From Thermoanaerobaculum aquaticum (GTDB lineage: Bacteria > Acidobacteriota > Thermoanaerobaculia > Thermoanaerobaculales > Thermoanaerobaculaceae), in the NCBI RefSeq assembly GCF_000687145.1, contig NZ_JMFG01000011.1, forward strand, positions 12,511 through 67,441: a stretch of DNA of 54,931 nucleotides, written 5' to 3'. This document shows positions 1,186-5,274 of this stretch, piece after piece (position 1 is the first letter of the stretch; each line of letters starts with the position of its first letter). A program made the translations under genes and the position numbers. The notes under the pieces were generated by a model. It worked only from the letters and a program-made list of their open reading frames with translations, searched no databases and had not been told where the DNA came from.

Positions 1186-1260
1186 TGGTGCCGGCGAGTG
1201 GACTCGAACCACTGACACGGGGCTTATGAGACCCCTGCTCTGCCTCTGAGCTACGCCGGC
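1186..1260 (-). tRNA. tRNA with CAT anticodon (Met elongator, or Ile2)
   Basis: A 75-nt cloverleaf including an encoded CCA. The acceptor stem is GCCGGCG/CGCCGGC, the D arm GCTC/GAGC, the anticodon stem GGGGT/GCCCC with loop CTCATAA (anticodon CAT), and the T arm carries GGTTCGAGTCC. The paired G1-C72 argues against an initiator tRNA. Elongator Met is most likely. The isoleucine tRNA that TilS modifies has the same anticodon and cannot be excluded, although pairs 4-69 and 5-68 (both G-C) are not the C-G pairs of the E. coli TilS substrate. Confidence 0.93.
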
Positions 1261-1316: not shown

Positions 1317-1520
1317 ATGGTGGAAGAGGTTGGCCTTCAGACCCAGTGCCCCAAATGCGGCGAGCTGCGCCCCAGCTGGTCGGTGCGGGAGTGCCCCATT
1401 TGCGGTAAGTTCTCGTGCATGCGTTGCGGGGTGTGGCAGTACGGGCGGCTCTTCTGCTCCCCACACTGCGCGGCGTTCTTCTTCCACGGGGATCCCGAAG
1501 AAACCCCCGAGGAGGGTTGA
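1317..1520 (+). CDS. Small double zinc-ribbon protein (67 aa)
   Basis: The short protein has eight cysteines: C11 and C14, C26 and C29, C34 and C37, C47 and C51. The spacing (CxxC, CxxC, CxxC, CxxxC) suggests two structural zinc sites. There is no signal peptide or membrane segment, and the tail is acidic. I do not recognise a named family. The ATG directly follows a TATACT -10 element with no room for a ribosome binding site. Its 3' end carries the -35 element of the next gene, so the two genes are adjacent but have separate promoters. The regular cysteine pattern supports a real gene. A role in nucleic-acid or protein binding is only a guess. Confidence 0.75.
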   Translation: MVEEVGLQTQCPKCGELRPSWSVRECPICGKFSCMRCGVWQYGRLFCSPHCAAFFFHGDPEETPEEG

Positions 1521-1552
1521 AGGGGCGGGATGCTTTATGTACAATCGCGCAC
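1517..1552 (+). promoter_or_regulatory. Promoter of the aminomutase-like gene
   Basis: TTGAAG (1517-1522), a 17-bp spacer and TACAAT (1540-1545), with a predicted start near 1552. A strong RBS (GGAGGTA) precedes the ATG at 1571. This is one of the few complete -35/-10 promoters in the window. Its -35 overlaps the stop codon of the preceding gene. Confidence 0.75.
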
Positions 1553-1570
1553 TCCTGGAACGGAGGTAGG

Positions 1571-2827
1571 ATGGCACCGCGAACGGATGAGCTTTTGGCC
1601 CAGGCCAAGGAACTAGCCCCCATCGTTGCCCACCGCGGGCAACAGGGCTTGCTTTTGGCCAAGGCTCAGGGCTGCCGGGTCTTCGATGCCGACAACGTGG
1701 GCTTCGTGGACCTCACCTGCGGTGGCGGAAGCTGTCTTTTGGGCTACGCCAATCAGTACGTACTGGATGCCGTGCGCAAGGCTACCACCCTGGGTTTGGC
1801 CTCGGGGTTTGCCAGCACCGCCGAGGTGGAGCTGGCCGAAGCGTGCAGCGAGTTTTTGCCCAACTACGCCCCCTGGGTGTTCACCAGCAGCGAAACCGAA
1901 GCCTTCGAGCTTGCCCTTCGCTTTTGCCGCCGCCATACGGGGCGGATGCGGTTGGTGGTCTTCGACGGTAACCGTTCGGGGGCGGTGGAAACTCTCCAGG
2001 TGATCCCCGGCGGTCCCGTGGGGCTTTCGCTGCCCAAGATTTCCGGCTTGCTGCCGGAGCTGGCCCGCACCGTGCGGGTGGTGCCCTGGGGCAACGCCGA
2101 GGCCCTGGGACGGGTGCTGGAAGAGGTGGGGGTAGACACCGCCGCTGTGCTTTTGGACCCCATTGCCAGCCAGTTTGGGGTGATCCCCCCCGACCCGGGT
2201 TTCCTGCAAAAGGTCCGGGAACTCACCCGCAACGTTGGGGCGCTTTTGGTGCTGGACGAAACCCTCACCGGCTTCCGCGTGGACCGGGGGGGCGCCAACC
2301 AGGCCTTCCACATTGATGCCGACGTGCTGGTTTTGGGGGGCGTGCTGGGCGGTGGCGTGAGCAGCCTGGGGGCGGTGGCCTTTGCCAAGCACCTGGAGGT
2401 GACAGTGGCGGAAGAGGTGGCTCCGCCGCCTTCGCCCCTGGCGGTGTCAGCGGCCGTAGCCACCCTTTCGGTGTTGCGCAACGATGCTGGCTACCTGCGC
2501 TTGGAGGAACGCTCGGTACAGCTGGAAACCGGCGTGCAGGCGCTGGCGGAAAAGTTCGAGCGGCCGCTGCGGGTAAACCGTGTGGGCTCGATCTTTTCCT
2601 TCAGCTTCTCGCGCCAGGGGGTGCGGGATGCGGCTTCAGCTGCGGCTTGCGACCAGGCCACCTATCGGCGGTTTTACGAAGCGGTCAAAGACAACGGCGC
2701 CCTGCTCCCCGCCAAAAGCCCAGCACCGGCCTTTCTCTCCTTGGCCCACGGGGTAAAAGACGTAGAAGCCATCCTCCAGGCCATGGAAGCGGCCCTTCGC
2801 AAGATGCAAAAGGAAGACGAGGCGTAA
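1571..2827 (+). CDS. Glutamate-1-semialdehyde aminomutase-like protein lacking the PLP lysine
   Basis: At 418 aa it has the length of HemL-type class III aminotransferases and follows their layout: an N-terminal strand with HRGQQG, SSETEAFELALRFCRR (about residues 106-121) at the usual SGTEA position, and LVLDETLTGFR (about 226-236) with the cofactor-binding Asp229. In the family the cofactor lysine sits in LGKxxGGGxPxGA. Here the aligned segment reads VLGGVLGGGVSSLG, with Gly257 where the lysine should be. The His-containing YHG loop is also replaced (FDGNRSG). The protein is therefore probably not a normal PLP aminotransferase. It may bind a ligand, act as a scaffold, or have lost activity. 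The ATG at 1571 is chosen for its GGAGG and upstream promoter. Confidence 0.85.
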   Translation: MAPRTDELLAQAKELAPIVAHRGQQGLLLAKAQGCRVFDADNVGFVDLTCGGGSCLLGYANQYVLDAVRKATTLGLASGFASTAEVELAEACSEFLPNYAPWVFTSSETEAFELALRFCRRHTGRMRLVVFDGNRSGAVETLQVIPGGPVGLSLPKISGLLPELARTVRVVPWGNAEALGRVLEEVGVDTAAVLLDPIASQFGVIPPDPGFLQKVRELTRNVGALLVLDETLTGFRVDRGGANQAFHIDADVLVLGGVLGGGVSSLGAVAFAKHLEVTVAEEVAPPPSPLAVSAAVATLSVLRNDAGYLRLEERSVQLETGVQALAEKFERPLRVNRVGSIFSFSFSRQGVRDAASAAACDQATYRRFYEAVKDNGALLPAKSPAPAFLSLAHGVKDVEAILQAMEAALRKMQKEDEA

Positions 2828-2831
2828 AGGC

Positions 2832-3209
2832 TTAGAAGTTTTCCCCAGGGAAGTGGCGCCGGAGAGCAGCCAGCAGGGTTTCGGGTTCCAAGGGTTTTTC
2901 CAAATACTCGTCCACCTTGTAAACCGTCTTGGCTTCCGATTCCCAGCGGTAGCTCTTGTACACCGCGGTGACGATGAAAACCTTGGGTTGGTACTCAGGA
3001 AGCTTTTCCTTGAGCTTGGCAATCACATCAAAACCGGAAAGCCGGGGCATGAGGGCGTCCAGGATCAAAAGCTCGGGGCGGTAGGCCAGGGCGGCGTCCA
3101 GCGCCTGTTTGCCGTCCGCCGCCTCAAACACCGTAACCCCCTTTTCCTCCAGGAGCTCCTTCACCAAAACCCGAAAGATCCGGCTGTCGTCAGCCACCAG
3201 AACCTGCAT
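2832..3209 (-). CDS. Single-domain response regulator (CheY-like)
   Basis: A stand-alone receiver domain of 125 aa with no output domain. It has the acidic pair D7/D8, phosphoacceptor D51 in LLILDALMP, switch Thr81 and Lys105 in the EKP motif, that is, every residue needed for phosphorylation. Such proteins signal by protein contact. It lies beside the STAS and RsbW-like genes on the same strand but is separated by 142 bp, with its own -10 element and RBS (GGAGGGTGGC before the ATG). Its 3' end lies four bases from the convergent aminomutase-like gene. The partner kinase is not identifiable here. Confidence 0.92.
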   Translation of the reverse strand: MQVLVADDSRIFRVLVKELLEEKGVTVFEAADGKQALDAALAYRPELLILDALMPRLSGFDVIAKLKEKLPEYQPKVFIVTAVYKSYRWESEAKTVYKVDEYLEKPLEPETLLAALRRHFPGENF

Positions 3210-3225
3210 GCCACCCTCCGGGAAA

Positions 3226-3231
3226 ATGCTA
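3226..3231 (-). promoter_or_regulatory. -10 element for the CheY-like gene
   Basis: TAGCAT on the minus strand. The predicted start near 3219 leaves a leader of about ten bases that consists mainly of the GGAGGG ribosome binding site. Confidence 0.45.
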
Positions 3232-3325
3232 CCACCGACCCCGAGTTAAAAACCCAAAATCCACCCGCACACCCCACACCTAGGTTGCCGTCCTCATACG
3301 GCGCCCCACCAGAAAAGCAAACGCA

Positions 3326-3348
3326 GCCGCTCTCAGCTCCCCAGCGGC
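3326..3348 (-). terminator. Possible terminator after the STAS gene
   Basis: Inverted repeat GCCGCT/AGCGGC with an 11-nt loop just after the STAS stop codon, followed on the minus strand by TGCGTTTGCTTTTC. The T-run is interrupted, so this is a weak candidate. Confidence 0.4.
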
Positions 3349-3351
3349 AGC

Positions 3352-3693
3352 TCAAGCTTGAAAGCTCTGCAGCGCTTCCGCTTCGTTGTCGAAGACGTCA
3401 AACACCGTGATGAGTTGGGTGACCTGCAGGATGTCGTTGATCTTGGGAGGCAGGTTCACCAGCTTCATGCTCCCGCCCCGCCGCTTGACGGTAGTAAAGC
3501 ACGCCACCAACTCCCCGATCCCGGAAGAGTCAATATGGGTCACGTCCTTGAGGTTCACCAGGATGTTGGTCTTGCCCGCCGCCAAAGCCTCTTCCACCAG
3601 GCGCCGAAGCTCCACATCCCCAGCACCGATGGTGATTTTCCCGGACAAATCCAGCACCCTTACGCCTTGTACGTCGCGAAAACTCCCTTTCAT
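3352..3693 (-). CDS. Anti-sigma-factor antagonist (STAS domain)
   Basis: A 113-aa single STAS domain with the phospho-serine motif DSSGIGELV around residues 55-63, as in SpoIIAA/RsbV. In partner switching the unphosphorylated STAS protein binds the RsbW-type kinase and frees its target. The kinase gene lies directly upstream and the two overlap as ATGA, so they are translationally coupled and probably act together. No sigma factor or PP2C phosphatase gene is present nearby, so the final output is unknown. Confidence 0.93.
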   Translation of the reverse strand: MKGSFRDVQGVRVLDLSGKITIGAGDVELRRLVEEALAAGKTNILVNLKDVTHIDSSGIGELVACFTTVKRRGGSMKLVNLPPKINDILQVTQLITVFDVFDNEAEALQSFQA

Positions 3694-4115
3694 GCGCTCC
3701 TCCTTGCCAACTTCTTCCTAAGCTCGACCTTAGTCCCACCGCTTGCGGAGCGGTCGAAGCTCACCTCATCCATAAAGTGGCGGATGTAAAAAACCCCCCG
3801 GCCACTGTCCTTGAGCAAGTTTTCGGGGCTTCGGGGATCGCTGAGGCGTCCGGGGTCGAAGCCTTCCCCCTCGTCCTCCACGATCATCCTGAGCTCCTGC
3901 CCTTCCTCCAGTTGAATGGTAACAAAAACCCGCTTTTCCGGGTTAAGCTTGTTGCCATGTTTGATGGCGTTAGCCAGGGCTTCCCGCAAGGCCATAGCCG
4001 CCCAGTAGAGGTCTTCCTCGTTGACCTTGGCGCGGGCCACTTCAAAGAGCATTTTTTCCGCAAGCTCAATGTTCTCATACGCCGAGAAAATGGAAATTTT
4101 CGCTTCCACGGTCAT
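3690..4115 (-). CDS. RsbW-like anti-sigma / serine-protein kinase (HATPase_c)
   Basis: This 141-aa GHKL-fold kinase has the N box (REALANAIKHGN), G1 box (DEGEGFDP) and G2 box (GRGVFYIRHFMDEV). Proteins of this type phosphorylate STAS antagonists and sequester sigma factors or other targets. The start at 4115 gives the usual N-terminus (MTVEAKISIFSAYENIE). A longer frame to 4379 would run into the coding region of the divergent gene and is rejected. Its ATG shares the CATG at 4113-4116 with the start codon of the divergent secreted-protein gene. A TAAACT -10 at 4129-4124 puts the transcript start two bases before the ATG. Confidence 0.92.
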   Translation of the reverse strand: MTVEAKISIFSAYENIELAEKMLFEVARAKVNEEDLYWAAMALREALANAIKHGNKLNPEKRVFVTIQLEEGQELRMIVEDEGEGFDPGRLSDPRSPENLLKDSGRGVFYIRHFMDEVSFDRSASGGTKVELRKKLARRSA

Positions 4116-5274
4116 GCGTAGGAAGTTTACCACGTTCGCCGCCACCTTCTTTTTGGCCTTAAGTGCCTGGGCGGCCACACCCTGCCCCCCCGCTCTCCTC
4201 ACCGAAGTCCCCAGGGTAGCCCAGTTGCGCGGGCTGGATGGCCGCTGGCAGCCCCGGTGTGAGCTCCTGGCCGCCGCTTCCCTCAAGGACAGGCTGGCCA
4301 CAAAGCTTGCCAACGAGCTGCCGCTACCGCCAAAGCTGTACATGGAGGTGCTCCAGCGCCTGGGCTTTGTGCCCTCCACACCAGAGCTTTACGAGCGGCT
4401 TCTGGACTTTTACGCCAGCCAGGTCCTGGGCTTTTACGAGCCCTCCCGGGACACCATGGTGGTGGTGAACCGCCCCCTGCCCAGCGAGGAGGAAAGCTCG
4501 GTGGTATGGGTGCACGAGCTCGCCCACGCCGCCCAGGAGGCGCGCTTCGGCCTTCCCACCAAGCTCTTGAGCGTCAAGGACAACTCCGACCAGCAGCGCA
4601 GCTTTTCGGCCATCGCCGAAGGGGAAGCCATGCTGGTGATGTTGCTGCTGGAAAGCCCCTCGCCTCCCCCCACCGAAAGCCTCGAGCAAGCGGCCCAGGC
4701 GCTGGTGGAGGTCAGCAAGTCCCTGGCCCGCTCGGCCAACATCGGCGATTTTTTCGTGGAGGACCTGGCCTTCCCCTACGCCCAGGGCTTGCGCACGGTG
4801 CTTTCGGCTTACAAGAAAGGGGGGTGGCCAGCGGTGGACGGCCTTTTGACCAACCCGCCGACGTGCACGGCGCATTTGCTTTTTGGCTCGCCCTGTAATC
4901 ACCTGGCAAACCGCGCCTTGCCGCCCGTCCCGGAGGGCTTTCAGGAGCTTTTAACCGATAGCCTGGGGGCGTGGGCCGTAAAGTTTTGGTTTTCCCAGGT
5001 GGCTGGGGGGGAGGAAGCCGAAAAGCTGGCCAGAGCCTGGGACGGGGACCGCTTGCGCCTCATCCGCGATGCAAGGGTCCCCCAGCGCTGGGCCCTATGC
5101 TGGAAGCTCCGGCTGAAAAGGCAGGCAAAAGCGATCTGGGCGCAGGCCTTTGTCCGTCAGCACGTGTCCAAGCTTTTGGCTTCCTTCCGCCAGGGCCCGC
5201 CCCCCCAGGTTACGGTGGTGTCCGAGGGGAGAACCCTTACGGTTTGGGTGGATTGGCCAGCACCTCAGCCTTGA
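4114..5274 (+). CDS. Secreted HExxH (gluzincin-like) putative metallopeptidase
   Basis: The 386-aa protein begins with a signal peptide (MRRKFTTFAATFFLALSAWA, cut near A21/T22). The zinc-binding motif is HELAH (about residues 134-138) and a second acidic segment AIAEGEAMLV about 30 residues later could supply the glutamate ligand of a gluzincin. The start at 4114 is chosen because it gives the signal peptide; the longer frame from 4021 lies inside the rsbW-like gene. The C-terminal 38 bp overlap the convergent cyclophilin gene. The exact family is not recognised; secreted zinc peptidase is inferred from the motif. A non-catalytic HExxH protein is possible. Confidence 0.8.
   Translation: MRRKFTTFAATFFLALSAWAATPCPPALLTEVPRVAQLRGLDGRWQPRCELLAAASLKDRLATKLANELPLPPKLYMEVLQRLGFVPSTPELYERLLDFYASQVLGFYEPSRDTMVVVNRPLPSEEESSVVWVHELAHAAQEARFGLPTKLLSVKDNSDQQRSFSAIAEGEAMLVMLLLESPSPPPTESLEQAAQALVEVSKSLARSANIGDFFVEDLAFPYAQGLRTVLSAYKKGGWPAVDGLLTNPPTCTAHLLFGSPCNHLANRALPPVPEGFQELLTDSLGAWAVKFWFSQVAGGEEAEKLARAWDGDRLRLIRDARVPQRWALCWKLRLKRQAKAIWAQAFVRQHVSKLLASFRQGPPPQVTVVSEGRTLTVWVDWPAPQP
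4124..4129 (-). promoter_or_regulatory. -10 element for rsbW-STAS
   Basis: TAAACT on the minus strand, predicted start near 4117 and ATG at 4115. It lies inside the 5' coding region of the divergent gene that starts at 4114. Confidence 0.45.

Follow-up and report, generated by a model that had tools for sequence, protein, structure and literature searches.

Identity and locus of the protein

The window analysed here, a stretch of 54,931 nt of DNA taken as a whole, carries a gene that raises a particular question: is a full-length homologue of glutamate-1-semialdehyde aminomutase (HemL/GSAM) that has no lysine at the PLP-binding position still an enzyme, a gene in decay, or a protein retained for some other purpose? 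An earlier note, drawn up from the sequence of the window, had described a full-length HemL-like protein at this position, and this identification holds. The ORF is intact and its product, termed pHemL (Table 1), belongs to the GSAM fold class, with an AlphaFold2 model (mean pLDDT 82) that superimposes on GSAM structures with a Z-score of 48.8 (to 5i92) and 2.2 A across 397 residues. Its top curated matches are likewise HemL models, each reaching less than two thirds of its cut-off (TIGR00713, 244.5 bits vs a curated cut-off of 527.3; NF000818, 256.6 bits vs 398), whilst the general class III aminotransferase profile, PF00202, is matched with 119.8 bits (gathering cut-off 30.5). By the latter profile and by predicted fold, pHemL is a member of the class III aminotransferases; by lysine, score and contact residues it falls outside catalytic HemL (GSAM; TIGR00713/PRK00062), the pyridine-contact aspartate being the one feature of this kind that is present. 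Compared with HemL proper (TIGR00713, EC 5.4.3.8), it is alike in full-length homology, predicted fold and this aspartate, but differs in score and in having lost the catalytic lysine, the phosphate site, YHG, the Asn of ENMG and the GTLSGNP motif. Because the PF00202 score is so far above cut-off, automatic annotation is likely to yield 'PLP-dependent aminotransferase', a label that would be wrong.

Among named records, those closest to this genome come from two MAGs of Thermoanaerobaculum (92 and 83 percent identity), and the published genome of Thermoanaerobaculum aquaticum MP-01T consists of 68 contigs totalling 2.66 Mb (PMC4056298). As the genome matches a cultured organism, the function of pHemL is open to experiment.

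Table 1. Coordinates of pHemL, its key residues and its upstream elements in the window
Feature	Position	Strand	Basis or remark
pHemL, K-less HemL-like protein, probable pseudoenzyme, 418 aa	1571..2827	+	Intact ORF, ATG start, TAA stop
Gly257, in place of the PLP-binding Lys	2339..2341 (codon GGC)	+	Alignment to solved GSAMs and 51 HemL rows
Asp229, corresponding to the Asp that contacts the PLP pyridine N; only retained cofactor contact	2255..2257 (codon GAC)	+	Alignment
Sigma-70-like promoter, TTGAAG-N17-TACAAT (putative)	1517..1545	+	Pattern; spans end of zinc-finger gene and gap
Shine-Dalgarno sequence GGAGGT before ATG 1571	1562..1567	+	Sequence pattern, good RBS
67-aa zinc-finger protein, 8 invariant Cys, acidic tail	1317..1520	+	Directly upstream of pHemL

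Loss of the cofactor site

The tree set comprised 28 lysine-less (K-less) orthologues, which belong to two families within the order Thermoanaerobaculales, and these were compared with 51 HemL rows. All 51 HemLs carry the PLP lysine and none of the K-less group does, residue 257 being glycine in 18 orthologues, alanine in six, serine in three and arginine in one. The replacement of the lysine by glycine, first read from the window alone, is thereby confirmed, with LGGVLGGG standing where HemL has LGKxxGGG; and a sequencing error, which orthologues with a normal lysine would have suggested, is rejected as the cause, since that residue is absent from all 28. Outside Thermoanaerobaculales, neither the related loci that were read out of the genome contig scan nor the phylum loci read contained a K-less HemL.

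Most residues of the surrounding site have also been lost. The YHG loop is indeed lost, reading NRSG, and the Ser-Gly-Thr phosphate site is S-E-T in the pHemL of the window and missing from most orthologues. The Asn of ENMG is replaced by Gln or Arg in the K-less set, GTLSGNP has lost its Thr and its Asn, and the Trp of SWG has become Gly. The phosphate, ring and pyridine contacts assigned here to single GSAM residues are those that we take to be general to the family. In the sister family a large part of the active-site-loop segment, which in GSAM governs access to the active site (PMC3747428), has also been deleted from pHemL.

The aspartate is a different matter. Asp229 of the DE motif is retained as the earlier note had it, and both it and Glu230 are invariant among the orthologues; it is nevertheless no evidence that PLP is bound, since the other contacts to the cofactor have nearly all gone. 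With the pyridine aspartate as the one remaining contact, binding of PLP by pHemL appears improbable, and PLP catalysis very unlikely, now that lysine and phosphate site are missing and the ring contacts are mostly lost. Amongst the columns that are invariant in HemL, 57 are lost from the K-less set (including those of SGT, YHG, the ENMG Asn and the Tyr-Gln-Ala-Gly-Thr-x-Ser-Gly-Asn-Pro motif) and 22 are kept, and 42 positions have become newly invariant, for example K31, N42, N61, Q62, D66, R239, S300, N304 and R331. Loss of catalysis-related positions together with new constraint is the outcome predicted for a changed function.

Conservation and selection

Identity to pHemL ranges from 59 to 92 percent in genomes of the same family that have the full-length gene, and is about 36-45 percent in the sister family. 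When the genome that holds the window is compared with that of its nearest congener, dN/dS (Nei-Gojobori) comes to 0.047 (pHemL), 0.063 (resident hemL) and 0.039 (hemB); the three genes are alike in this respect, the ratios being approximate because synonymous distance is near 1. Two marks of a conserved pseudoenzyme are found, namely a catalytic residue missing throughout (28 of 28) and purifying selection; a third, the lack of activity or PLP binding in the protein, is predicted. A protein that is under constraint as strict as that on an active enzyme, and has no catalytic lysine, is very probably a non-catalytic member of the HemL family kept for another job, as judged from these comparisons.

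Genomic context

The earlier note had called pHemL an expressed pseudoenzyme rather than a decaying gene, pointing to a strong promoter and RBS. Both elements are recognisable as patterns: a scan returned one promoter-like site of this kind against 0.1 expected, the nearest congener has exactly the same site, and TACAAT recurs in a second congener. Since this site overlaps the 3' part of the zinc-finger gene and extends into the gap, and is unchanged in the congener, pHemL may also be transcribed on its own. The reading of a pseudoenzyme that is not decaying is supported by the absence of the lysine in two families, the low dN/dS and the presence of a true hemL elsewhere, whilst expression is predicted from sequence patterns.

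In both families the zinc-finger gene lies directly upstream of pHemL, with tilS-hpt-ftsH divergent on its far side. Its product has the cysteine pattern CxxC-x11-CxxC-x4-CxxC-x9-CxxxC, an FCS motif and an acidic tail; no Pfam family matched it above cut-off and no Foldseek match reached E <= 0.001, although it may still belong to a known fold or family. Across the class the gene is present in 74 of 148 genomes, mostly adjoining divergent tilS, and also occurs where pHemL is not beside it. A tRNA with anticodon CAT, called as tRNA-Met, is located between the zinc-finger gene and tilS (1186-1260, minus strand). TilS modifies tRNA-Ile2 (CAU), so this tRNA may be tRNA-Ile2. Downstream, the neighbours differ between the two families. 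In the window, genes for a response regulator, a STAS-domain protein and a histidine-kinase-like ATPase (2832-4379, minus strand; named by eye, of partner-switch type) converge on pHemL; in the sister family the next genes on the strand of pHemL are hflX and one for an FmdB-like zinc-ribbon protein.

A true hemL was sought elsewhere in the genome and is found on contig C15 in a hemB-hemL-hemE cluster, with hemA about 1.7 kb upstream of hemB; its product keeps FGKVIGGG, SGT, YHG and GTLSGNP. In relatives, the heme genes appear at the zinc-finger locus itself. In family f7, hemB comes after the zinc-finger gene; a single genome of family f4 (G038) also has hemB at this place, and next to it a lysine-containing hemL with LGKILGGG. 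These arrangements give pHemL the appearance of a former catalytic hemL.

Proposed function and related systems

The explanation that we favour, with some reservation, is that of a conserved pseudoenzyme with a history of displacement and a scaffold or regulator role. In an ancestor, the locus with divergent tilS would have held a catalytic hemL close to hemB and the zinc-finger gene. Synthesis of 5-aminolevulinate would then have passed to another hemL lineage, the one that now sits between hemB and hemE, and the old copy would have lost its lysine and PLP/PMP site and, in the sister family, most of the active-site loop. The fold, presumably dimeric, would have been kept and would have acquired its own set of invariant residues. 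The simplest reading is that it was kept for its binding surfaces; pHemL would most likely act as a scaffold or regulator, binding a partner or ligand in the altered cleft of the active site or on the surface of the dimer.

The leading candidate partner would be the first tetrapyrrole step (HemA or its unstable product). Complexes of HemL with HemA are documented (PMC6399207), and a HemL-derived protein could thus act on this step; an interaction of pHemL with HemA is put forward as a hypothesis. In its fullest form, the proposal is that a displaced ancestral hemL was recycled order-wide, together with the zinc finger, into a regulator or scaffold of 5-aminolevulinate synthesis that binds HemA, GSA or heme. 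We regard this extended version as speculative and rather unlikely; if true, it would provide a bacterial HemL-derived regulator of tetrapyrrole supply. A role for pHemL in heme control is conjectural, and the link is made doubtful by the class-wide occurrence of the zinc finger without pHemL and by one genus (G026) that has lost pHemL whilst keeping both zinc finger and hflX.

A pseudoenzyme unconnected to tetrapyrroles, serving as a scaffold with the zinc finger or with the tRNA, ribosome and stress neighbours (tilS, hflX), is the chief rival, a reasonable possibility that nonetheless stands below even odds. Heme genes no longer adjoin pHemL, the zinc finger is the sole same-strand partner common to both families, and hflX and the FmdB-like gene share its strand in the sister family. 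The dissimilar downstream neighbours in the two families weigh against such a partnership, however, as does the persistence of the zinc finger without pHemL in G026 and in other families.

Returning to a conserved pseudoenzyme of scaffold or regulator type, several known systems are comparable. The deoxyhypusine synthase prozyme of trypanosomatids (PMC3663545) similarly has a fold that selection has maintained although its catalytic residues are gone; it coexists with a working relative and forms a complex with this active enzyme. For pHemL such a pairing would be a candidate, the active HemL apparently being of another lineage. The indole-synthesis pseudoenzyme of eudicots (PMC12727527) is again a dead enzyme fold beside a working relative. 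The papers searched gave no description of a lysine-less HemL family and nothing relevant on HemL pseudoenzymes. In serine palmitoyltransferase, SPTLC1 is a catalytically dead paralogue that acts on its active relative. To our knowledge, GluTR-binding protein is not derived from HemL. A likeness to pHemL is proposed for it (PMC9614494) and for the HemA-HemL complex (PMC6399207) in that the first tetrapyrrole step is organised by non-catalytic proteins or by partners.

Phylogeny and origin

In the best tree the K-less rows form one clade (100/100), on a long stem that could mislead the tree, and join the HemLs of families f4, f7 and f9 (97/95), whilst the resident hemL clade lies separately with f8 and one copy from G047 (100/100). 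This last genome, of family f9, has two lysine-containing HemLs of different lineages (C8:84546-85772 and C1:274670-275842), of which one adjoins hemB and belongs to the resident lineage, whilst the other is solo. The solo copy has YYG instead of YHG, and may represent an intermediate state.

Duplication of the resident hemL, as opposed to displacement, is an unlikely origin. Constraining K-less and resident HemLs together costs 14.7 log units, but is not rejected (AU p 0.17). A sister-group relationship of the K-less clade with G038 alone is a candidate that was not rejected either (p 0.305). Displacement is preferred because of synteny and because pHemL does not have the ANAGLLLQRREFL-type motif, a derived feature of the resident HemLs, the best tree and synteny both leading to the f4/f7/f9 lineage. 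It is therefore probable, on synteny and, to a moderate extent, phylogeny, that pHemL is a former catalytic hemL whose place was taken by another hemL lineage and which has survived as a pseudoenzyme. The locus would then offer a traceable route from a core metabolic enzyme to a non-catalytic protein, with catalytic sister lineages and the ancestral context still visible.

Residual activity and decay

That pHemL is still an enzyme, either needing no Schiff-base lysine because it employs PMP or some other cofactor, or using K31 or K396 instead, is highly improbable. GSAM does cycle between PMP and PLP (PMC3747428), and the pocket-lining Asp229-Glu230 and glycines are kept in pHemL. When a substitute lysine was sought by conservation, K31 and K396 alone proved invariant in all 28 orthologues, and neither is convincing: K396 is common in ordinary HemLs (20 of 51), and K31 lies in a region of low-confidence prediction in the AlphaFold2 model. 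The loss of phosphate and ring contacts, and the extensive deletion of the active-site loop in the sister family, speak further against retained activity.

Decay or sequencing error is a negligible prospect for pHemL as a whole, as the frame break in one low-coverage MAG and the absence of the gene from one genus are outweighed by strong purifying selection, by a promoter region kept within the genus and by the ORF itself, which is full-length in almost every genome of the two families. The genus in question, G026, has a clean zinc-finger-to-hflX junction (L193, C166). A joint loss of pHemL and zinc finger there was considered and is not supported, the zinc-finger ORF being intact and the flagged TGA its normal stop. 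The frame break, in a congener MAG (G001, L066, C38), falls near residues 251-266 on a contig with a coverage of 4.3, and is probably an assembly error.
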